Shown: positions 446 to 12,233 of the stretch, one piece after another | Layout: each line of letters starts with the position of its first letter | Numbering within the stretch: position 1 is the first letter of the stretch | Virus record (IMG/VR): IMGVR_UViG_3300047551_000749 | Coordinates: 1 to 23,894 of that record | DNA: 23,894 nt | Reading direction: 5' to 3' (one strand) | Origin: a virus | The notes under the pieces: model-generated | Told to the model about the DNA's origin: nothing | Database searches by the model: none | What the model saw: the letters and a program-made list of their open reading frames with translations, nothing else | Made by a program: the position numbers and the translations under genes

Positions 446-1642
446 GTGACTACCTATACCAATACGTTTGGTGGGACGAATATCTACCCGAGCGATGTCT
501 CGTACCGTTATGTATCGCTGACCATTGATCAGGTGCTTGACTGGCCGTTAGAGGCTGCTCCGAGCACGGACGTTGTGGCTTCCATTATGGATGTCAACGC
601 AACGGCGACGAGCCTAGTCATCACGATGCCTGATGCGACCGAAGGCAGCAATGGGGCAACGGTTCTTTTCAACAACGTCGGTGCTAACACCTTTACGGTT
701 AAGACCAGCACGGGCACAGTGATTTGCGCTCCTCAATCGGGCGATGCGTTTCAGATCTATCTAACCAACAACAGCACGGCAGCGGGCACTTGGCGTTCGT
801 TCCAATATGGTGCATCGGTATCGTCAACCAATGCGGCTGCTTTGGCGGGGCTTGGCATCAAGGCCATCACCACAACGCTAAACCAATCTACGCCGGTCAG
901 CACGCTTAGCACCAATTACACAGCTGGTCCAAATGACCGAGCGAAGGCTTTAGTGTGGACAGGCGGTGCTGGCACGTTGTCATTTAATTCCGCGCCGACG
1001 CTGGGCAATGACTGGTTTATTAATATCCGAAATGGCGGAACTGGCGATCTAACTCTGGACCCAAGCAGCAGCGAAAACATTAATGGCGCGGCTACTTTAG
1101 TTTTGTCTCCCGGTGATAGCGCAATCGTTATTACGGACGGAGTTGAATTTTGGACAATTGGTCTTGGTCAGTCTGCGGTTTATGCATTTAGCGTTCTTCA
1201 GATTGACATTTCTGGCAGCGGTAATTACACGCTATCAGTTTCTGAACTTAACAAAACAGCGTACATTTTTACCGGAACGCTGACTGGCAATCGCGACATC
1301 ATTGTTCCGACGACTGTTCAACAGTACTGGGTTAGCAATCAAACTAGCGGCGCTTATACCCTAGGCATTCGCACGGCTGGGCAATCAAGCCCCGGCGTTA
1401 CTGTTTCTTCTGCTGCACGAGCCATCTTGTATTGCGATGGAACGGATGTGGTAGATGCTGATACGTCAACAATTGGTCTTCCCGTACCAATTAGCCAAGG
1501 TGGCACAGGCGCAACAACCGCAGCCAACGCGAGAACAAACTTGGGCGCTACGTCCATTGGTAATGCTGTCTTTACTGCGGCAAATGAAGCAGCGGCACAA
1601 ACTGCGCTTGGACTGAATCCGATTGAGGGCGGTACGTACTAA
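446..1642 (+). CDS. Beta-rich virion appendage/fibre-like protein with three modules and a C-terminal hinge motif
   Basis: 398 residues starting at GTG 446, one base after the adaptor stop, with GGGAGG five bases upstream. The protein is rich in Thr, Ser, Gly and Asn, typical of beta-structured tail appendages. Three similar segments follow each other (about residues 40-125, 128-240 and 245-340). Each ends in a strand-turn such as FQIYLTNNS...W, AIVITDGVEFW or AILYCDGTDV, which suggests tandem beta-sandwich modules. Residues from about 348 carry PISQGGTGATTAANARTNLG, a hinge or collar signature common near the ends of phage tail-fibre proteins. No catalytic motif is visible. A receptor-binding or head-decoration role is inferred. 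Its place between adaptor and nozzle-like genes argues for a virion structural protein. The stop overlaps the next start by one base (TAATG). Confidence 0.6.
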   Translation: MTTYTNTFGGTNIYPSDVSYRYVSLTIDQVLDWPLEAAPSTDVVASIMDVNATATSLVITMPDATEGSNGATVLFNNVGANTFTVKTSTGTVICAPQSGDAFQIYLTNNSTAAGTWRSFQYGASVSSTNAAALAGLGIKAITTTLNQSTPVSTLSTNYTAGPNDRAKALVWTGGAGTLSFNSAPTLGNDWFINIRNGGTGDLTLDPSSSENINGAATLVLSPGDSAIVITDGVEFWTIGLGQSAVYAFSVLQIDISGSGNYTLSVSELNKTAYIFTGTLTGNRDIIVPTTVQQYWVSNQTSGAYTLGIRTAGQSSPGVTVSSAARAILYCDGTDVVDADTSTIGLPVPISQGGTGATTAANARTNLGATSIGNAVFTAANEAAAQTALGLNPIEGGTY

Positions 1643-3252
1643 TGCCCCTTCAGCCGGTCATCGTTCGCTCTGAAGCGGGGATTAAACGCGACGGAACGAA
1701 GTTTGAAGGTAACTTTTATGTGGACGGGCAGTGGGTCCGTTTTCAGCGTGGGTTGCCTCGAAAGATCGGTGGCTTTCGTGCGCTGCAAGATCGGCTGGAT
1801 GGCATTGCTCGTGGCATGCACGTTCACAATCATAATGCTTATACGTATGTACACGTAGGTACAGCGCAGGGCGTATTCCGGTTTCGGCTTAGCCAGAACG
1901 GTCAGTCCAGCATTGTTACCGATCGCACGTACAGCGGATACGTTGCCAACTCCAATAACCTTTGGCAGTTTGATGTGGCGTTTAACACCACAAACAGTCA
2001 GAACGAAATTCTGGCTCATGCTGCACCAAACATTGAAGACATCTCTTCGGACGCTTCTGGGCAGCTTTACCAAGGTTTTGATAACGGAACGAGCGAGTTG
2101 GTCCCGGTTTCTGGCATTACCGTTTCTGGCGGTATCGTTGCCCTTGCGCCGTATGTGTTTGCGTATGGATCAGATGGCTTCATTCAATGGAGTCGAGCAG
2201 GGTACACGGACGACTGGTCAGGCGGCGATGCTGGTGAGGCGCGTGTTACGAGCCAGAAGATTGTCAAAGGTCTTCCGCTTCGATCCGGTGCAGGTAACGC
2301 TCCATCTGGACTTTTTTGGTCATTGGATTCCGTAATCCGAGCCACGTATGTCGGTGGCGCTGCCGTTTTTCAGTTTGACACCATTACCTCGCAGTCAAGC
2401 ATTCTCTCGTCGCAGAGTGTGATTGAGTACGACGGTATCTACTTCTGGTGCGGTGTTGACCGTTTCTTGATGTTTAACGGTGTCGTGCGTGAAGTGCCGA
2501 ACTCGCTGAACCTAAACTGGTTCTATGACAACTTGAACTACGATCAGCGACAGAAGGTCTTTGCGTTTAAGGTGCCGCGTTGGGGGGAGATTTGGTGGTG
2601 TTACCCGCGTGGTAATGCAACCGAGTGTACGCATGCGGTCATCTACAACGTGCGTGAGAATACGTGGTACGACACGGAACTTCCGAACGGCGGTCGCTCT
2701 GCGGGTCAGTACGCGCAGGTCTTTAGTTCGCCGCTGGTGATTGGCGTCATTGATACCGAGACGACGCAGTATCGTGGCACGCAAGATAGCGAGCGCCGCG
2801 TAACGGAAGACGACCAGCCGCGCATCATCAACGACCCCAAGGGCAACGTGGTGTGGCAGCACGAGTACGGCACCGATGAGATTAACGGCGATCAGATTCG
2901 CCCGGTGCAGTCGTATTTTGAGACGGCAGACATGTCTCTTTTAACTTCTGAACAGCCGCAGAACATGGCGGTTCGTGTGGAGTACCTAGAACCCGACTTC
3001 GTGCAGTCTGGGAACATGACCGTACAAGTCACGGGCCGCGCTAACGCCAAATCAGGCGAGGTCACGAGCGATCCGCAAACGATTTATGCTACGCCCACCG
3101 AGCGTCAGCAGCAGTTGGTGTACTTCCGTGAGATTCGTCGCGAAATGCGCTTTCGGTTTGAAAGCAACACGCTGGGTGGGAACTACCAGATGGGGCAGAT
3201 TATTGCTCACATCGAACCGGCTACGGGTACGATCCTTGGAGAGAATCCATGA
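1642..3252 (+). CDS. Tail nozzle / packaged-DNA stabilisation-type protein
   Basis: 536 residues. The N-terminus contains AGIKRDGTKFEGNFYVDGQW followed by VRFQRGLPRKIGGFRAL, an opening seen in many podovirus proteins annotated as phage stabilisation or nozzle proteins (P22 gp10-like in role). The rest is dominated by Trp, Tyr and Gly with alternating strand-like segments (for example WCGVDRFLMFNG and VIYNVRENTWYDTELPNGG), consistent with a beta-propeller-like or beta-rich tail tube tip. There is no signal peptide or membrane segment. Gene order adaptor, appendage, this protein fits the connector-to-tail axis. The start overlaps the upstream stop (TAATG) and has only a weak ribosome site (GAGGG about 12 bases upstream), suggesting translational coupling. 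The exact family is inferred; a plain structural protein is the alternative. Confidence 0.5.
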   Translation: MPLQPVIVRSEAGIKRDGTKFEGNFYVDGQWVRFQRGLPRKIGGFRALQDRLDGIARGMHVHNHNAYTYVHVGTAQGVFRFRLSQNGQSSIVTDRTYSGYVANSNNLWQFDVAFNTTNSQNEILAHAAPNIEDISSDASGQLYQGFDNGTSELVPVSGITVSGGIVALAPYVFAYGSDGFIQWSRAGYTDDWSGGDAGEARVTSQKIVKGLPLRSGAGNAPSGLFWSLDSVIRATYVGGAAVFQFDTITSQSSILSSQSVIEYDGIYFWCGVDRFLMFNGVVREVPNSLNLNWFYDNLNYDQRQKVFAFKVPRWGEIWWCYPRGNATECTHAVIYNVRENTWYDTELPNGGRSAGQYAQVFSSPLVIGVIDTETTQYRGTQDSERRVTEDDQPRIINDPKGNVVWQHEYGTDEINGDQIRPVQSYFETADMSLLTSEQPQNMAVRVEYLEPDFVQSGNMTVQVTGRANAKSGEVTSDPQTIYATPTERQQQLVYFREIRREMRFRFESNTLGGNYQMGQIIAHIEPATGTILGENP

Positions 3253-3495: not shown

Positions 3496-6492
3496 ATGGC
3501 TAGCTACTACACTTACGGCGCAGTTCCAACGGCTGAGGAAACGGTCTTCGGCCCGCTTTCTTCTGGTTACGCTGATGGTGGTGAAGTGGACGATTTAATT
3601 CCGCAAGCCCCTCCAGAAGATCCAATGCGCGGAGTTAGTGGTCCCGAAATGTTTCGTTGGTCAGACGGCACATATCACTTTATGCCTGAAGGGTCTGGGC
3701 AAAGAACTCCAATTGATCAGCTTCCTGACTATTATCGTCGTCTAACTGAAGAGGCTTTGGCTAAGTCACCGCTTGAAAGTTCCCCCGGACCGGGACTAGG
3801 TGGAGACGAGCCGGTTTACACCCCGCGTGGGGAGGATGTTCCGGTAACGCCGCTTGCTTCTGCTGCGCCGCCTCCGCCGCCTGCTGCCGCTCAATACGAC
3901 GAAAAGGGAAACTTGCTTGCCTCGTCAGATTCGCCGTTGTCTCAAATGAGCGGAGGTACGCCTGACTGGATTAAGAGAATGCAAGCCTTTGGGGCAGCGC
4001 CATCCCTTGTTCAAAATCTTGTAAATATTGGAACTGGCGGTACAGATATTGCTGCTGGAAATCTTTACAAGGTTAAAAAAGATCAAGCAATAAAAAGCTT
4101 TGAGGAGCGACTTAAATCAGTAGAAGCCGGTGGTTACTTAACGCCGGAAGTTGAGCAGTCCTTAAAGGATAATTTGTCTTATGAGTTAGAACAAATTTCT
4201 GCTGGAGAGAGCGCGTATTTAAATTCTCTTCCTCAAAGACAAGTCCTTTCCGACCTGTTGAAGAACAACCAATTCTCCGAGGCAATTAAGTACGCTCAAG
4301 ATAATGGGATGCAGACTTTGCTGACTCGTCCGGATGAGTTAAGCAACCTTCGCCAGCCTTTCACGAAAGACGAAGCCCGTCAGTTTATGCGGAGCTTAAC
4401 TCCCGAGTTTTTTAAGAGCGCATACGGCGATCAATACGAATACGACAAGGCTTGGAAGTTTGACCCAGAAGGCGCTGAAGAGCGCGGTGCATTGGCTTGG
4501 GTATCCGGAGCAGGTACTCCGGGGATGGCTATGTCGGAAACCGGCTACCCGATGCTCGATAGGGTTCTTAAGGCGCAAGAGTTAAGAAGCGAAAAAGGCT
4601 CTGTCTTTGAAAAAATATTTAAAGCAGCCGCGATCGCCGCAGCAGTGTTTGGCGGTGCTCAACTTCTTGGAGCATTAGGCAGTGCAGGGGGCGCAGGGGC
4701 TGCGGGAGCTGGAACCGCTGGTGCTGGTGCTGCGGGTGGTGCGGGAGCGGGGGCTGCTGGTGCAGGGCTTTCTGGGGCGGCGGCTGGCGCTGGAGGGTTA
4801 AGCGCTGCTCAGCTCGCTAGCGTATTACCTGAAGTAGTCATTACTGCAAGTAAAGTAAGTCCGCTTTTAGCGGGAGCTGGTGCTGCTGGAGCAGGACTCG
4901 CAGCTTCAGAGCTAGCTGGAATGGGATCAAAAGCTGCCGTTGCTCAACCTTCCACGCAAGTTCCACCTACTGATGGCCTAGAGGAAGTTGTGGTTCAAGC
5001 TGCTAAACGCGGACCATATTCATTGCTTGGTCCCGGCACTTTGGCATCAACGTCATTAATGACTCCTGGGTCAATATCAGACATTCCAACTGACATTTAC
5101 GGTCAACCGACTGAACCGACCGAAATCACGGAGCCTGCGGAACAAACGCAGAAAAAACCATTTGAAGATCGACTTGAAGAAGTTGTAGTCACGGGTAGCA
5201 AGTACAAACCCGGAATAATTGATCTTGGTGCTATTGGTACTGGTGGCTTAACAGCAGCTCAACTAATGCAAGGCTTTACGGAGCCGACGCTGCGGCCTTA
5301 TGAAGAACTACCGCCAGAAGGAGGGCCTATTGAGGAAGTTGTTGTCACCGGAAGCAAGCCTTCACCGATTGATCTTATGGATGTTGGAATTGGCGGGCTT
5401 ACTGCTGCTCAGTTAATGCAAGGATACACACAACCAAATATTGGACCATACGAGCAAGTGGCAACAGAGCCTTCTCCTGAAGAAACGAAACAGCCGTTTG
5501 AAGATCGCTTGGACGAGGTTGTTGTTACTGGTAGCAGGTATCAGCCCGGTATTCTTGATTTGGGAGCAATTGGAACTGGTGGGTTAACAGCAGCAGAATT
5601 GTTAAAGGGATTTACTGAACCCAGTCTTCGTCCATATGAGGAACTTCCGCCAGAAGGCGAACCTATTGAGGAAGTTGTTGTCACGGGAAGCAAGCCGCCA
5701 CCGATTGATCTTATGGATGTTGGAATTGGCGGGCTTACTGCTGCTCAATTAATGCAAGGGTTTACACAGCCAAAGGTTGATCCGTTTACAGGCGAACCAA
5801 AAGAGCCGCCAAAAACAGAGCAAGAGTTAGACAAAATTCAGGCTGCTTTAAAAGCAGGAACTCCCATTCCGGGAACAAGTTCTTTCCTCAAAGACTTAAT
5901 AAGCAAATACGGCACTCTTGAAAACGCGCTTAAAGTTCTCGGCGCTCTTGGCGCTGGCGCTGCTAAGGGTCCCAAGATGCCTACTGGTGGCGCGGGTGCA
6001 GGCACAGGCGGTATGGGTGGCGCGTTGCCGAAGTACACCTACGCTCGTCAGCAGTTGAGTCCAGATATTGATTACTACACCTACGGCACTCGACCGGAGG
6101 CGCGGTTCTTTGAGCAGGGGCTTAAATTAGAACAGCCTACGCAACCTGAGCCGCCGCAAGGTCCGCCTTCTAAGCCACCAGTGGAAGAGCCGGTCTTTGC
6201 CACGGGCGGTCTGACGGGCTACGCCAAGGGTGGCTCCAAGAGTTCGCGGTACGTAGATGGCCCCGGCTCCGGGCGGGACGACAAGATCCCGGCTCTGCTG
6301 AGCGATGGGGAATATGTGATTGATGCTGAAACGCTGGCTCTGCTCGGGGACGGCTCGACCAAGGAGGGTGCTCGGCGCATGGATAAGTTCCGTGCTAAGA
6401 TCCGCAAGCACAAGGGTCGTGCCCTATCGCGTGGCCGGATTAGTCCAAACGCAAAGTCGCCCGAAAAATATATGGGCGGAGGGTTGACCTAA
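3496..6492 (+). CDS. Large repetitive virion protein with TonB-box-like repeats
   Basis: 998 residues; ATG 3496 is preceded by AGGTGA. In order: an N-terminal YYTYG motif and acidic/proline segment (residues 1-150); a charged helical region (about 150-370); an Ala/Gly-rich hydrophobic stretch (about 375-445); then a proline-rich repeat region with six TonB-box-like motifs starting near residues 446, 496, 561, 613, 673 and 725. The last four read (E/D)EVVVTGS(K/R). A second YYTYG lies near residue 857. The C-terminus (about 915-998) carries DDKIPALLSDGEYVIDAETL and LLGDGSTKEGARRM, a segment I associate with many phage structural proteins. No enzyme motif is visible. Neighbours are nozzle-like and ejection-like genes, so a virion or ejected protein is likely. 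The TonB link is inference. The stop overlaps the next start (TAATG). Confidence 0.6.
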   Translation: MASYYTYGAVPTAEETVFGPLSSGYADGGEVDDLIPQAPPEDPMRGVSGPEMFRWSDGTYHFMPEGSGQRTPIDQLPDYYRRLTEEALAKSPLESSPGPGLGGDEPVYTPRGEDVPVTPLASAAPPPPPAAAQYDEKGNLLASSDSPLSQMSGGTPDWIKRMQAFGAAPSLVQNLVNIGTGGTDIAAGNLYKVKKDQAIKSFEERLKSVEAGGYLTPEVEQSLKDNLSYELEQISAGESAYLNSLPQRQVLSDLLKNNQFSEAIKYAQDNGMQTLLTRPDELSNLRQPFTKDEARQFMRSLTPEFFKSAYGDQYEYDKAWKFDPEGAEERGALAWVSGAGTPGMAMSETGYPMLDRVLKAQELRSEKGSVFEKIFKAAAIAAAVFGGAQLLGALGSAGGAGAAGAGTAGAGAAGGAGAGAAGAGLSGAAAGAGGLSAAQLASVLPEVVITASKVSPLLAGAGAAGAGLAASELAGMGSKAAVAQPSTQVPPTDGLEEVVVQAAKRGPYSLLGPGTLASTSLMTPGSISDIPTDIYGQPTEPTEITEPAEQTQKKPFEDRLEEVVVTGSKYKPGIIDLGAIGTGGLTAAQLMQGFTEPTLRPYEELPPEGGPIEEVVVTGSKPSPIDLMDVGIGGLTAAQLMQGYTQPNIGPYEQVATEPSPEETKQPFEDRLDEVVVTGSRYQPGILDLGAIGTGGLTAAELLKGFTEPSLRPYEELPPEGEPIEEVVVTGSKPPPIDLMDVGIGGLTAAQLMQGFTQPKVDPFTGEPKEPPKTEQELDKIQAALKAGTPIPGTSSFLKDLISKYGTLENALKVLGALGAGAAKGPKMPTGGAGAGTGGMGGALPKYTYARQQLSPDIDYYTYGTRPEARFFEQGLKLEQPTQPEPPQGPPSKPPVEEPVFATGGLTGYAKGGSKSSRYVDGPGSGRDDKIPALLSDGEYVIDAETLALLGDGSTKEGARRMDKFRAKIRKHKGRALSRGRISPNAKSPEKYMGGGLT
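5161..5780 (+). repeat. 336-bp in-frame tandem duplication inside the 998-aa virion gene
   Basis: Two copies of a 112-residue unit start at about 5161 and 5497, each opening with FEDRL(E/D)EVVVTGS. Each unit holds two half-units (52 and 60 residues), and each half-unit begins with a TonB-box-like motif and continues into a GGLTAA(Q/E)L segment and a proline-rich turn. By eye, the first half-units differ at about 27 of 99 bases, mostly at third positions. The second half-units (from 5332 and 5668) differ at about 5 of 93 bases. Confidence 0.85.
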
Positions 6493-7931
6493 TGGGTGTC
6501 CTAGACTTTCTTTTCGAGGGCAGCGCCCCGACTCCCGGCACGACCGGAACGACAACTTCTACTCAGCTTCCTGAGTGGTACACCCAGTACACAACGGACA
6601 TGCTGGGCCGCGCTCAAGCAGCCACAAACCTTCCGTATGCCCAGTACACGGGGCCGCGTATTGCCGCGTTCACTCCGACTGAGCTAGCCGGATTTGAAGC
6701 TACCAAAGCAGCAGCTAGAGCTTATCAGCCGTTTCTCCAACAGGCTGGGGCTACATTAGGACAAGCGGCGGGCGTTAGCGGCGCGGCAGCGGCTGATCCT
6801 TATTTGTCTCAAGCGACGAGTATGAGAGGTGCCGTTACGGCAGCGCCTTATCTTACTCAGGCCGGAGGGATGTCTGCATTAACCGCAGCTCAACCCATGT
6901 TTACGCAGGCCATGGCTCCGATCCAGCAGGCCGGTCAAGCATCAGCAGTAACCGCAGCCAGTCCGTTCTTGGCCGGTGCAGCTCGCACGTTCCCGCAGGC
7001 GGCTCAGGAATACATGAGTCCGTATCTCAAAAATGTCGTGGAACAGATGGGCGACATTGGCGTGCGTCAGCTTAAAGAGAAATATCTTCCAGCGGTCGGC
7101 CAAGAGTTCATCCAAGCCGGTCAGTTTGGCGTGGGTCCGGGTAGCACCCGTATGGGCGAGTTTGGCGCTCGGGCGTTGCGCGATGTGAACGAAGCCATTC
7201 TTGCCGAACAGGCCAAAGCGCTACAGACGGGATACGGTCAGGCTGCGGATATCTACGGCGAAGATGTTCGTCGCTTGGGTCAGCTTGCTAGTACGGTCGG
7301 TCAGCTCAGCACGGCGGATTACAACCGGCTTCTCGAAAGCGGTGTTCGTATTGCTGACATTGGCGCAAAGACTGGACAGCTTACGAGTGACGATGCACAA
7401 AGACTGGCCGAGATCGGAAAAGTAACAGGCACTCTTACGCAACAGGATGCCGCTAACCTTGCGCGAATCGGAGAGGCAAGAGGTCAGCTCTCGCAGCAAG
7501 ACGCTGCCAATCTTCAAAACATTGCTGCCAAGTACTCCATGCTTGGAGAGTTTGCTCAAACCGCTGGCTTGCGAGGCGCTGGAGCCATTACCGGCGTTGG
7601 CGAAAAAGAGCGTCAGATGCAGCAGGCTAATCTCAACTTGGCCTATCAGGACTTCTTGCGTCAAGAGCAGTATCCGAAAGAGCAGATCAAGTTCTTGTCG
7701 GATGTGCTTGGTGGCGTGCAGTTGCCGCAGACGACGATTAGCAGCACTACATCAATGCCAGCCATGCCGGGGGACCCGTCTACAATTGAAAAAATTATTG
7801 GCGGTGCTGGCGGTGTGGGCAAATTAATTGATTTGTTTAAAAAGTATTATCCTTCTGGATCAAGCGGCTCAACTACTATGCCAGATGTAGATTATATAGA
7901 TGAGCTTCGACGGCTTGGCATTTTGAAATAA
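6492..7931 (+). CDS. Helical virion protein with 18-residue repeats, probable internal/ejection protein
   Basis: 479 residues; ATG 6492 overlaps the previous stop and has GGAGGG upstream. The N-terminus (LPEWYTQYTTDMLGRAQ, then YAQYTGPRIAAFTPTE) matches an opening I recall from podovirus structural proteins of unknown fold. Residues about 75-170 are Ala/Gln-rich with loosely repeated PYLxQA and PFLxxA elements. Residues 295-348 contain three consecutive 18-residue repeats of the form GQLTxxDAxxLAxIGxxx. The C-terminus is a short Ser/Gly/Pro linker ending in DYIDELRRLGILK. There is no membrane segment or catalytic motif. Sequence style and position between large virion proteins suggest a virion component, perhaps ejected with the DNA. 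Function is inferred. Confidence 0.6.
   Translation: MGVLDFLFEGSAPTPGTTGTTTSTQLPEWYTQYTTDMLGRAQAATNLPYAQYTGPRIAAFTPTELAGFEATKAAARAYQPFLQQAGATLGQAAGVSGAAAADPYLSQATSMRGAVTAAPYLTQAGGMSALTAAQPMFTQAMAPIQQAGQASAVTAASPFLAGAARTFPQAAQEYMSPYLKNVVEQMGDIGVRQLKEKYLPAVGQEFIQAGQFGVGPGSTRMGEFGARALRDVNEAILAEQAKALQTGYGQAADIYGEDVRRLGQLASTVGQLSTADYNRLLESGVRIADIGAKTGQLTSDDAQRLAEIGKVTGTLTQQDAANLARIGEARGQLSQQDAANLQNIAAKYSMLGEFAQTAGLRGAGAITGVGEKERQMQQANLNLAYQDFLRQEQYPKEQIKFLSDVLGGVQLPQTTISSTTSMPAMPGDPSTIEKIIGGAGGVGKLIDLFKKYYPSGSSGSTTMPDVDYIDELRRLGILK
7374..7535 (+). repeat. Three tandem 54-bp (18-aa) repeats in the helical virion gene
   Basis: Units at 7374-7427, 7428-7481 and 7482-7535 encode GQLTSDDAQRLAEIGKVT, GTLTQQDAANLARIGEAR and GQLSQQDAANLQNIAAKY. 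A partly matching copy lies just upstream (GQLSTADYNRLLES). The protein pattern is kept better than the DNA, so this is a maintained helical repeat rather than a recent slippage product. Confidence 0.8.
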
Positions 7932-7949: not shown

Positions 7950-9119
7950 ATGGACAGAGAAACAGCCGCACTGCTTGGCCTTCCTTATGAAGAGGAAGGG
8001 GTTGAAGCTCCTTTATCCGGTCTTGGCTATCGCGATCTTTTGCGTAAACGCCTTCAAAAAGATATTGAAGAGTCCGAGACGGAAGAGAGCCAAAGCTTTC
8101 AAACTGTCCTTAACAACATTGAACTGGCCAAGCAGCGTCTTTTGGCTCAACCTTCACGCCAAGAAACTCTTCAGCAAATAGCGTCCAAACTGACGCAGCC
8201 TAGAGAGCGTACTGACCCGCGCTTTTTTGAGCGGCGAAACCTATACACGTTCTTGCGTGATATTGGCGAGTATGGATCTGAGCGAGAGGCTGCGCAAAAG
8301 AAGGCACAAGAACAAGCGGCTAAGCTTGAAGATCTTGCTGCTAAGTACAAGTTTGAGCGTGCGCAAGAGCGCGGCAGTAAGGCTCGTCAGTTGATGGCGC
8401 AGTACTTGTCGAAGGAAGAAGCCGAGAAAAAAGATGAACTTCCTTCTGAGGTTCGTCAGGTTGAGTACTATCAAAACATTGTTGCAAATCCCAATCAGTT
8501 TGCTTCAGACAGAGTTCAGTTTGCAAAAGACTGGCTTGCAAAAAATGTTCGTGTTCCGGAAGACGGAAAAGATAAGACTGGGCTTTCTCCGGCTGAGATT
8601 AGATCTATTGGTATGGAAGTTCGATCGCAAACTGATCCAGCTAGAGAAAAAGTTGGTTTTGCAAATGATGCCCTTGGCAAGTTAAAGCTTGCTATGGAGG
8701 GTAACCCGCAGGCCGAGGTTCAGGTTGACCGTGCTTTGGCAACGCTTGCCGGTGATAAGCAACTCAGTCTTGCAGAAGTTCAGAGTATTACCGGAGCTGG
8801 GTCTTTTGCTCAGCGCGTAACTAACGCTATTAGCAAGTTCTTCACCGGCGGCGCTGGGGAGCTTACGAATGAGCAGAAAAAAGAACTTCTTGAGTTTTAC
8901 GAAGATTATTACGGTAATGCCTTTAACAATGCTAGAGAGCGTGTAAAAAGAATCTATTCCGGCACTGGATATGAAGCTTTGCCAGAAGACATCTTTGGCT
9001 CTCGCTATGTAACTATTCGTGAGAAAAGAGAAAAGCAAGAAAGAGAGGCAGCTTCTGCTAAACCGGAAGGCGAGTCTATTAGCACAAGCACCGGCAAAAC
9101 AGGCAGAAAGGTAGATTAA
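7950..9119 (+). CDS. Charged helical protein, putative internal virion protein
   Basis: 389 residues; ATG 7950 has a weak, distant AGG upstream. The composition is Lys/Glu/Gln/Arg-rich with long heptad-like stretches (about residues 25-60 and 105-170), suggesting coiled coil. A central segment (about 235-345) is more globular, with LTNEQKKELLEFYEDYYGNA near its end, followed by a polar tail. No signal peptide, membrane segment or enzyme motif is visible. It sits between two large putative ejection proteins in the same orientation, so a role in the virion interior or in DNA ejection is plausible. It could also be a scaffold or chaperone for those proteins. I do not recognise a named family. 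Confidence 0.55.
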   Translation: MDRETAALLGLPYEEEGVEAPLSGLGYRDLLRKRLQKDIEESETEESQSFQTVLNNIELAKQRLLAQPSRQETLQQIASKLTQPRERTDPRFFERRNLYTFLRDIGEYGSEREAAQKKAQEQAAKLEDLAAKYKFERAQERGSKARQLMAQYLSKEEAEKKDELPSEVRQVEYYQNIVANPNQFASDRVQFAKDWLAKNVRVPEDGKDKTGLSPAEIRSIGMEVRSQTDPAREKVGFANDALGKLKLAMEGNPQAEVQVDRALATLAGDKQLSLAEVQSITGAGSFAQRVTNAISKFFTGGAGELTNEQKKELLEFYEDYYGNAFNNARERVKRIYSGTGYEALPEDIFGSRYVTIREKREKQEREAASAKPEGESISTSTGKTGRKVD

Positions 9120-9131
9120 TAGGGGACTTCG

Positions 9132-12100
9132 ATGGCTAATAATGTCTACGTGATTGCTGGCCAGAAGTACGCATTTGACGAGCCTCTGACCCCGGCGGAA
9201 TTGCGCGAACTTGAGGAAAAGCTTGGCGGCAAGCCTGCTGCTCCTACGCCCGCCCCTGTTGCGGCTCCTGCCCCTGCTCCTACTGACGTTGCTCCCAAAA
9301 AGCCGGAAGAGCCTCCGGGCACGTTTGATTATTTACTTAATGCTGCACGGCGAGGAATAACCGGCACGACCTCTATGTTGGGTGCTGCTTACGAAACCGG
9401 CGTAGAAATGAACCGCAGACTCAAGGAAATGGAGGAGCGGGCACGACGAGAGAAAATGGGTATTGGAGAGCGCTTTCAGATGTTTCGCGAAAGCGATTAC
9501 TTCCCAAGCCTTTCTGAACTTGCAGAAAAGTATGGCGAACAGCAGCGCAGGGCAGGTCGCATAACGGGCGCTCGCGATTTAACGGCTCCGGGTCCTGTAA
9601 CAGAAATTGTTGGGGCTGGTGTTGAAGCCGCGACAGATCCGTTTGGTTTGGTGGGTAAACTAAAAGCCATCCCAACAATTGGCCGTGCTACTGGTGAGTT
9701 CTTGACCGGCGTTTCGGCGGACATTGCAGGTCGTGGTGGCGCTGCCGCTGAAAAGGCTGTAACCGGAGAAGATACTGGAATTAGTCGTTTAATAGCTTCT
9801 TTGGCCGGAGGTGCTGCAAGCGCGTCTCAACGTGAAGCTCTCTCAAACATTGCTGGACAGGCAATTGAAAAAGCAAGGCAAGTACCGCTGCGCGCTTCCT
9901 CTGTCAAGGCGGAAGAAGATTATGCCAAGGGCGCTGCCAAGCGATTGCTTGAATTTGCAGCTAAAGAGCAGGGCGCTAAGTCCATTGACGAAATTATCGC
10001 TGAAGCTGGCGAAGCTTCTCGTTTTGCTGCGGGTAAAGAAGCTCCGTTACTTGTTGCTATGGCAGATAACCCTGTAATCAGGCAGCAGGTCATTAGGCTT
10101 GCCAAGAGCGATCCTGTATTTCGCCAACAAGTTAATGAGACGCTGGCTTCGCTTCGTGGCGATATGCGTGCAAAGGTTGAGAAGATCTTTGGCGTTCGTT
10201 ATGAAGCTGGCGGCAAAGAAGCATCTATTTTTGAGCCGGGATATGTTCCGGGCAAAGAGCCTCCAAAGGGTGTTGATGTAGGAAACGTAGCCCAAAGACG
10301 AGAGGCGCTAACTCGACGTATTGAGGATATTGCGTCTGGGTTTGAGCCTACTAAGTCCAAGGAAGAGATTGGCGCTCGCATTGAAAGTCTTGTTGAAGAC
10401 AAGAAAAAGCTTGCTCGTCAGGAAGTTTCTCCCGAGTACGAAAGCCTTTTAGCAGATGCCCGTAGTTCTGGTGTAAAAATGCCGCCAGAGGGCGTTGGTA
10501 CTATTTACGACTTTGTTGTTCAAAACAATTTGCGTGACATTTTTGGAAAATCAACCGACCTTGACCGCCGCATCATGGGCGTTTTAGCTCCAAAAGAAAT
10601 GCCTGTTCCGGGTACTGCTGAGACTGTCACCGAACACTTGCCCATGAGCTTTGACAACGTAGAGTCACTCAAGAAGGCAATTAACGAACTCAAGCGGCAG
10701 CGTATGAGCGAAGACTCGATGCGCAAAGTTTTGCAGCTTGAAGAGGTGGTTGACGAAGCTCGTAAGACCATATCGGGAGACTTTAGCGACAGGCTTAACG
10801 CAATTGACTTGAAATACTACGAAAAGGTAGGCGTGCCGTTTGGCGCTCAAGGCGTTAAAGATATTGACTCTAAAAAGTACGCGACTCAGGTTGCCCCTGT
10901 CATCGTTAAGAACAGCGAGTCTTTTGATCAGTTTATCCGTGCTGTGGGAAAAGAGCAGGGGTACAAGATTGCCGAAGACTCTATCATTAGCGAGATTTAC
11001 GATAGGGCGGTTAAAAACGGCGAGCTAAACCCCGGCGCTTTGGCAAAGTATCTCAAGACTAAAGAGGGCATCATTCGTCAGATTCCGGGTCTTGAGGACA
11101 AGCTTCGCACGGCTCTTTCCGACGATTCTGCTTTAAGAGCAAGGATTAGCCAGCTTGACGACGCTGCGGCTGCGGCTGAAAAACGTATTGCTGATAACGC
11201 GCTGACTAAGTTTGATGCGCCTAACTACAACGCGCTTGCTCGTTCTTTTATGGTCGATCCCAAGTCGCGTGAAAAGCTGCTGCGGGATATTGGTGACTTG
11301 GACGCTGATTCTGCCAAGGCTGTTCGTCGAACTCTTCGTGCTGAAGTTATTGCTTTGGCAGATGAGAACCCGGCTGGGTTTATGGATTACTTGATGAATC
11401 CGGCGAACAAGGATGCCTTGGACAAGATCTTTGGCTCTGCGTTCCAGCCTGCCTTGAAAAAAGTAGGGTTGATGGCTGACAAACTTTCTCAAGCCGATAT
11501 CAGCAAAGTAGGCGTTGCCGTAACTAAAGAAGACCTAGACCCGCTAGCAAAACTGGCTCCGGGCTTGGACATTCCCTACATCTCGTCAACTTTCCGAGAT
11601 CGCATCACGAGCTTGCCGCAAAAGATTGTTCGATTGATGTCTCGTGTTAACTCTGCGCGTCTGTTGCAAAAAACCGACGAAACGATCAAGGAGCTATTGC
11701 TTGACCCGAACGGGGTGCAAAAGTTGGCTAACGTGGCTACGGAAATCGACTTCTCACTAAATGCTGCGGATAAAGTCAAAAAGCTGGGGAATGCTGTTGC
11801 GGCGGTATTGCCACGCGCTTTCTACACCTCTGGGAAAACTGCCGTAGCCGGAGAAGAGCGTGAGCAGCGTGCTGAAGAGCGACGTAAAGAAGTCAGTTCG
11901 GATATCGTTTTAGGCGGATTTGAGGATCAGTCTGGACAACCATCAGAGAGCGGTGCCCCGCCTATTTCCGCCCCGCCAGAAGCTCCTGAAGAGGGGGCTG
12001 AGCCTTACAGCTACGAAAGCCTGACCAGCAATCAGGTCAACGAACTGGGACGCTATCTCGACTCTTTGGGCATCAACAAAGACTTCTTGATGAACCCCCA

Positions 12101-12233
12101 GACATTTAATTCCACCCCCGTAGAAAAGCGTAAGCAGTTGTTTGCTCGTCTTCAAGCAAAAAATATGGCCCGTGGCGGCGTTATGTACACACCTGCTGAA
12201 CAGCTCTTGCTAAGAAGGTACGCAAGCAGGTAG
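9132..12233 (+). CDS. Very large helical protein, putative ejection/internal virion protein
   Basis: 1033 residues; ATG 9132 has AGGGGA five bases upstream. The N-terminus is a short module of about 32 residues (MANNVYVIAGQKYAFDEPLT, then PAELRELEEKLGG) joined by an Ala/Pro linker (about residues 34-58) to a long, mostly helical body rich in Ala, Lys, Glu and Asp. The body has Gly/Ala-rich patches (AARRGITGTTSMLGAAYE near residue 70). The C-terminus (from about 930) is a proline-rich linker and a small domain containing SLTSNQVNELGRYLDSLGI. No lysozyme or peptidase signature was found by eye. Size, position as the last big gene of the virion block and helical character resemble internal core proteins of podoviruses that cross the envelope during ejection. 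That role is inferred. Confidence 0.55.
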   Translation: MANNVYVIAGQKYAFDEPLTPAELRELEEKLGGKPAAPTPAPVAAPAPAPTDVAPKKPEEPPGTFDYLLNAARRGITGTTSMLGAAYETGVEMNRRLKEMEERARREKMGIGERFQMFRESDYFPSLSELAEKYGEQQRRAGRITGARDLTAPGPVTEIVGAGVEAATDPFGLVGKLKAIPTIGRATGEFLTGVSADIAGRGGAAAEKAVTGEDTGISRLIASLAGGAASASQREALSNIAGQAIEKARQVPLRASSVKAEEDYAKGAAKRLLEFAAKEQGAKSIDEIIAEAGEASRFAAGKEAPLLVAMADNPVIRQQVIRLAKSDPVFRQQVNETLASLRGDMRAKVEKIFGVRYEAGGKEASIFEPGYVPGKEPPKGVDVGNVAQRREALTRRIEDIASGFEPTKSKEEIGARIESLVEDKKKLARQEVSPEYESLLADARSSGVKMPPEGVGTIYDFVVQNNLRDIFGKSTDLDRRIMGVLAPKEMPVPGTAETVTEHLPMSFDNVESLKKAINELKRQRMSEDSMRKVLQLEEVVDEARKTISGDFSDRLNAIDLKYYEKVGVPFGAQGVKDIDSKKYATQVAPVIVKNSESFDQFIRAVGKEQGYKIAEDSIISEIYDRAVKNGELNPGALAKYLKTKEGIIRQIPGLEDKLRTALSDDSALRARISQLDDAAAAAEKRIADNALTKFDAPNYNALARSFMVDPKSREKLLRDIGDLDADSAKAVRRTLRAEVIALADENPAGFMDYLMNPANKDALDKIFGSAFQPALKKVGLMADKLSQADISKVGVAVTKEDLDPLAKLAPGLDIPYISSTFRDRITSLPQKIVRLMSRVNSARLLQKTDETIKELLLDPNGVQKLANVATEIDFSLNAADKVKKLGNAVAAVLPRAFYTSGKTAVAGEEREQRAEERRKEVSSDIVLGGFEDQSGQPSESGAPPISAPPEAPEEGAEPYSYESLTSNQVNELGRYLDSLGINKDFLMNPQTFNSTPVEKRKQLFARLQAKNMARGGVMYTPAEQLLLRRYASR

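Follow-up and report, generated by a model that had tools for sequence, protein, structure and literature searches.

TonB-box-like motifs repeated in a putative DNA-ejection protein of a P22-like short-tailed phage

Six TonB-box-like motifs in one virion protein

The viral record IMGVR_UViG_3300047551_000749 of IMG/VR, analysed here over the whole of the 23,894-nucleotide window formed by its positions 1 to 23,894, encodes a putative virion protein of 998 residues in which six short motifs closely resemble the TonB box, the segment of TonB-dependent receptors (TBDRs), colicins and pyocins with which host TonB pairs. We propose, at roughly even odds (a probability of about 0.5), that this product is the pilot protein of a P22-like podovirus which, once ejected, would present its TonB boxes in the periplasm and engage host TonB. 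The motifs had been noticed in a reading of the sequence alone; they occur at exactly the residues which that reading gave, all in frame within the 998-residue open reading frame (ORF), between nucleotides 4831 and 5694. The gene, its boxes (scored in bits on the TBDR matrix described below) and an internal duplication are as follows.

3496..6492 (+): coding sequence of the box-bearing virion (putative ejection) protein, 998 residues; ORF, weak PHROG matches and IMG/VR homologues
4831..4854 (+): box 1, EVVITASK, residues 446-453; 14.4 bits
4981..5007 (+): box 2, EEVVVQAAK, residues 496-504; 15.0 bits; best-conserved box position in the family
5176..5202 (+): box 3, EEVVVTGSK, residues 561-569; 24.2 bits
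5332..5358 (+): box 4, EEVVVTGSK, residues 613-621; 23.1 bits
5512..5538 (+): box 5, DEVVVTGSR, residues 673-681; 21.8 bits
5668..5694 (+): box 6, EEVVVTGSK, residues 725-733; 23.1 bits
5151..5443 (+): copy 1 of a tandem duplication, holding boxes 3 and 4
5487..5779 (+): copy 2 of the duplication, holding boxes 5 and 6; 81% identical to copy 1

The two copies of the duplication lie 336 nucleotides apart and align over 293 nucleotides at 81% identity. Because boxes 3-4 and 5-6 are thus two copies of one unit, boxes 3 to 6 do not represent four independent gains, and the protein is perhaps best counted as having four boxes of independent origin, of which two have been doubled.

Resemblance to receptor boxes beyond chance

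The TBDR weight matrix comprises 12 columns and was built from 25 receptor boxes of metagenome-assembled Proteobacteria genomes met in the searches. Homologues of the 998-residue protein were collected solely by their conserved C-terminal domain, a procedure blind to the motif, and a box was counted at a threshold of at least 10 bits. On these terms the close homologues contain 85 boxes, distributed over 26 of 32 proteins, against 0.8 expected from shuffled versions, and their density of 2.97 boxes per 1000 residues compares with 0.047 (63-fold lower) in 461 further ORFs from these loci. The enrichment is independent of the matrix, since a plain pattern, [ED][VIL][VILTKE][VI]T[GA], is enriched as well: it occurs 54 times in 28.6 thousand residues of close homologues and 24 times in 39.9 thousand residues of distant ones, as against 11 times in 550 thousand residues of six-frame control ORFs.

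The order of residues within the motif is similarly restricted. Codon scans of IMG/VR located EEVVVTGxK at 33 loci, its T-G swap EEVVVGTxK at a single locus and the permuted VEVETVGxK at none. As many of the 33 loci are close relatives, these numbers argue for order-specificity rather than for 33 origins; the raw count of the short pattern, a lower bound that is about as high as expected by chance, is not used as evidence. When the phage boxes are set against the TBDR consensus, [LIV]-x-E-[VI]-x-V-T-[GA]-x-[RK], they match it column by column, with the same positions fixed and the same positions free, including the column between the two fixed valines, which varies both in the phage boxes and in real TBDR boxes. 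The resemblance to TBDR boxes put forward by the sequence-only reading is therefore real, all six motifs reaching 14-24 bits on the matrix, and to judge from these comparisons it is not a product of chance.

Conservation and variation among homologues

A first search yielded homologues on five IMG/VR contigs, and more were recovered through the C-terminal domain. In an alignment of 26 homologues, the position of box 2 begins with Leu 495 (23 of 26) and continues with Glu or Gln, Val or Ile, a variable residue, Val 500 (24 of 26), Thr or Ser, then Gly, Thr or Ala, a further variable residue, and Lys or Arg 504 (22 of 26); in the same alignment column identity drops to 11-27% in the spacers separating the boxes. 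Close homologues have from one to six boxes, among which the variants EEVVVTGSK, EEVVVTGNR, DEVIVTGSK, QEILVTGSK, QEIEVTGKR, EEITVTGKK and PEIVITATK are represented, and they also contain proline-rich repeats of the form EEVVIETTKP or EEVVVEGTRP. Distant homologues show [DG]DIVVTG and DEIVVTGNR forms, which are probably typical of alphaproteobacterial receptors.

Real TBDR boxes from the searched genomes vary in like manner (VEEIVVEETRQ, LPEVKVIGEK, LEEITVTGSR, IEELVVTPNR), and several variants run in parallel between phage and receptor: LEEVVIETTKP with VEEIVVEETRQ, LEEITVTGKK with LEEITVTGSR, and, from a Caulobacter phage, VDEIVVTPSQP with IEELVVTPNRI. Such tolerance is acceptable because the TonB box works through its strand conformation, local secondary structure mattering more to its activity than individual side chains (PMC11658791). 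One homologue (L001:4873-8787) has an insertion of about 300 residues, rich in Ala, Arg, Glu and Gln, near its N-terminus, which is without counterpart in the window protein; the homologue of locus L028 is similar.

Gene neighbourhood and predicted structure

The genes surrounding the box-bearing gene, and the segments of its product other than the boxes, are listed below.

1642..3252 (+): upstream neighbour, P22 gp10-like tail/packaged-DNA stabilization protein (phrog_3287, 3.6e-36)
6492..7931 (+): downstream neighbour, DNA-ejection-protein homologue, 37% identical to RW_GP065c
7950..9119 (+): further gene of the cluster, by position; no PHROG match
9132..12233 (+): large protein at the cluster end, by gene order in the place of the relatives' DNA-transfer protein
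4033..4485 (+): folded helical domain, residues about 180-330; AlphaFold2 pLDDT mostly 81-94 up to residue 310, residues 251-300 conserved
4603..4674 (+): hydrophobic helix, residues about 370-393, a possible membrane segment; Kyte-Doolittle peak 1.69, helices over 370-393 in the low-confidence model
4675..4830 (+): Gly/Ala-rich stretch ahead of box 1, residues 394-445, from sequence composition
6196..6489 (+): C-terminal domain common to the family, residues 901-998; 62% identity to the Caulobacter phage RW protein

The upstream product shares 50% identity with RW_GP068c of Caulobacter phage RW and 23% with a protein of phage DSL-LC04 annotated as a stabilization protein, and RW_GP065c, the relative of the downstream product, matches phrog_4287, 'DNA ejection protein'. 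In RW the counterpart of the 998-residue protein, RW_GP066c, likewise stands between the counterparts of the stabilization and ejection genes and shares the 62% identical C-terminal domain. Comparison of the 9132..12233 product with the relatives' DNA-transfer proteins gave no significant sequence match. This arrangement places the gene within the tail/ejection module of a short-tailed phage of the P22-like kind. Against PHROG the 998-residue protein itself gave a weak match to the internal virion family phrog_342 (28.8 bits, residues 233-611) and weak matches to tape-measure families; the label 'ejection protein' is a putative one drawn from gene position, homology to a proven ejection protein being weak. 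A genome scan for the host of the phage did not find one, the matches being mostly to metagenome-assembled contigs whose binning may be wrong.

Within the protein, the last 98 residues hardly vary across the family, column conservation being 91-97% from residue 926. A single AlphaFold2 model set was computed from 26 sequences and attained a mean pLDDT of 47 and a pTM of 0.32; from this low-confidence model only the helical domain and the disorder were used. All six boxes fall in predicted disorder following the hydrophobic helix (pLDDT below 50 over residues 364-585, 592-698 and 703-758), and are thus predicted to lie in an accessible, unstructured segment of about 370 residues. A Pfam search of the whole protein gave no match, no signal peptide is evident in the sequence at its start, and a phmmer search of PDB with a 20-residue box segment, too short a query, returned no match. 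The virion or ejected-protein setting that had been claimed for the motifs accords with the stabilization gene upstream, the DNA-ejection-like gene downstream and the predicted disorder of the box region.

Proposed mechanism and rival explanations

The identity, enrichment and conservation of the motif, its gene context and the predicted disorder around it are established directly. From these we infer that the 998-residue protein would be packaged in the virion and, as a DNA-ejection (pilot) protein, would be released into the cell envelope on infection. Its disordered region of some 370 residues would then bring at least one TonB box within reach in the periplasm, where the C-terminal domain of host TonB could pair with it through beta-strand addition, the mode in which it binds receptor, colicin and pyocin boxes. 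Such pairing may tether the ejected protein to the energized ExbB-ExbD-TonB motor of the inner membrane, or the motor may pull the protein across the envelope, with use of the proton motive force; the presence of several boxes might raise avidity or permit repeated capture.

A number of observations weigh against this proposal. The weight matrix is built on no more than 25 boxes, chosen in part by eye, and leave-one-out scores run from -5 to 35. Among homologues the position of box 1 varies widely, many secondary repeats read EEVVIETTKP, which is not a TonB box proper, and distant homologues often have no box, 17 of 55 containing one of at least 10 bits. In one lineage (L002, L003 and L159) the core is absent and EVKVEAPxDKP repeats occupy its place; as this lineage and many distant homologues do without the motif, it is not essential to the family. 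Lastly, within the duplication of the window, one of seven changed codons in the motif is nonsynonymous versus 13 of 39 outside it, and the motif codons show no visibly stronger constraint than the rest of the repeat unit. The sequence-only reading had regarded retention of the repeat unit with loss of its EEVVVTG core as decisive against TonB; most homologues retain the core, but the L002/L003/L159 lineage has lost it and many secondary repeats have the EEVVIETTKP form.

These same features sustain the main rival explanation, in which the motif is a short beta-strand within the virion or ejectosome, pairing with a phage protein or with its own copies, so that the likeness to TonB boxes would reflect convergence. 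The repeats do consist of a strand motif with proline spacers, the EEVVIETTKP and EVKVEAP forms preserving the alternation but not the TG, and it is these repeats, together with the lineage that keeps repeats and loses the core, that keep the explanation alive. We nevertheless regard it as possible but rather unlikely: a generic strand does not account for the importance of T/G order (33 loci versus one), nor for a run of conserved residues reaching [LIV] at -3 and [RK] at +6, just as it does in TBDR boxes, and unrelated proteins without any known common partner have the motif too. If the boxes are instead decoys, a periplasmic protein would occupy TonB and block receptors for other phages, colicins or the host, in competition or superinfection exclusion, without aiding entry. 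A single disordered chain with several boxes would be well suited to titration, and phages are known to block TBDRs by other means, through T5 Llp and Cor lipoproteins (PMC9586334); however, a decoy would presumably need a high copy number, ejection proteins are present in few copies per virion, and no evident signal peptide would serve later export, so that we give this explanation little credence.

Two further possibilities appear far less probable still. One, an alternative raised by the sequence-only reading, is that a piece of a host receptor was captured and its boxes were retained as a linker. The near-identity of EEVVVTGSK/R to receptor N-termini might suggest this, but the boxes occur singly or repeated, in different proteins and at different positions, with variants that follow the consensus and not one donor. 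No plug (PF07715), barrel or other Pfam/NCBIfam TBDR model matches the protein, and this alternative found no support, unlike the box likeness of the same reading, which is real, and its ejected-protein setting, which fits the gene context and the predicted disorder. Most boxes also conform to [LI]-x-E-[VI], as would a T4-type prohead-protease site with [LI]-x-E before the cut; such an origin is scarcely credible in view of conservation that runs six residues past the glutamate, and of the presence of the motif in tape measures and a tube cap, which escape head processing.

Boxes in other viral proteins

Among lambda-type tape measures (PF09718), 9 of 22 close homologues have a box at one shared internal site and two further close homologues have box-like text there, while every distant homologue lacks it; the lambda-like tape measures with a box at this fixed internal site were noted at loci L301, L302, L305-L311 and L322. 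The Vibrio phage tape measures checked have no box. One or two boxes stand near the N-terminus of a T4-type baseplate tube cap, while the tube-cap homologues of the cultured pelagiphages HTVC008M and Mosig have none. A second protein of the ejection cluster bears EAPEIVVTAPRI near its N-terminus in L187 and L190, and PSEEIVVTATEG near its C-terminus in L183 and L184. Large downstream cluster proteins in which a box-like motif (EAPEIVVTAPRI, PSEEIVVTATEG, PVSEVVVTSPKR) lies close to one end were noted at L187:7877-10117, L190:7915-10155, L183/L184:7420-10272 and L228:3732-6323 (+). As to hosts without TonB, a small sample showed boxes to be absent from the tape measure of Butyrivibrio phage Idris and from two actinobacterial proteins with the C-terminal domain, but from Vibrio phage homologues as well.

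Box carriers seem, by impression, to include more than their share of proteins that pass into or through the envelope. It is conceivable, though we hold this only tentatively and at somewhat less than even chances, that in phages of Gram-negative bacteria the virion proteins that cross the envelope (ejection protein, tape measure, tube cap) have acquired TonB boxes repeatedly and independently as a module, and that many phages would bring a box of their own and use the host proton-motive-force motor for entry.

EEVVVTG was also observed in fixed context in three further viral families (L041/L048/L051/L123; L013/L031/L112; L046/L059/L080/L124), one of which has a weak virion-structural match related to proteins of large Pseudomonas phages, the other two being without database matches. 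Separately, apparent TBDRs of about 547-549 residues are encoded on viral contigs (L021:5969-7609 (-), L068:5026-6672 (+), and also L008, L024, L029, L064, L095 and L098), with a signal-peptide-like start, an EEVVVTG box, a Plug domain (PF07715) and a BtuB-like match (TIGR01779). The neighbours of the L021 and L068 receptors look by eye like T4-type replication genes, and the nearest match in phage collections is 22%, to a Salmonella B12 receptor record; these may be phage-carried receptors or misassigned contigs.

Relation to known systems and significance

The closest functional parallel to the protein proposed here is offered by group B colicins and S-type pyocins, which are likewise foreign proteins, each with its own TonB box within an unstructured segment, and would encounter TonB in the periplasm. 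Pyocin S2, for example, delivers its own box from an unstructured N-terminus (PMC10994204). These bacteriocins differ in being soluble toxins with receptor-binding and killing domains, whereas the phage product is a putative virion protein that bears as many as six boxes and in which no toxin domain was found, and TonB use is proven for them while it is proposed here from sequence. With TBDRs (FhuA, BtuB and environmental receptors) the phage protein shares the box consensus, but it has no evident signal peptide, plug or barrel, and its boxes are internal and repeated. Podovirus ejection proteins (P22 gp7, gp16 and gp20; T7 gp14-16) resemble it in the stabilization/DNA-ejection gene context, in a hydrophobic Gly/Ala-rich segment and in the weak match to an internal virion family, although the analysis yielded no sequence homology with the P22 and T7 proteins and TonB boxes are not described for them in the literature searched.

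Phages have long been connected with TonB, which was discovered through phage T1; phi80 is another TonB-dependent phage, and infection by H8 is reportedly TonB-dependent. To our knowledge, the TonB box in the known TonB-dependent phage cases belongs to the host receptor. The proposed situation is unlike that of T1, phi80 and H8 in this respect, as here the phage would bring a box of its own. Use of host TonB in T1 infection is documented (PMC11658791). The Caulobacter phages RW, GB2A, RLK and KcrB have a homologous protein in the same gene order (C-terminus 62% identical, neighbours 50% and 37%), but the RW protein is of 580 residues with one good box instead of six, the Caulobacter phage homologue having a single box-like VDEIVVTPSQP of 12.9 bits. 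The cultured host of RW, Caulobacter vibrioides CB15, has Plug-type receptors, as indicated by Plug family matches in C. vibrioides.

No literature linking TonB boxes with virion proteins was found among the titles and abstracts searched, a coverage outside which subscription journals and preprints fall. TonB boxes in foreign proteins such as colicins and pyocins, and phages that depend on TonB, are already known; what appears to be new is a box on a virion protein. How pilot proteins and phage DNA get through the periplasm and the inner membrane, and what powers that passage, is an open question in phage biology. If the proposal is correct, recruitment of TonB by a phage-borne box would represent an added way of crossing the envelope, parallel to that of colicins and pyocins, and the question of energy for phage entry would become open to ordinary tonB/exbBD genetics.

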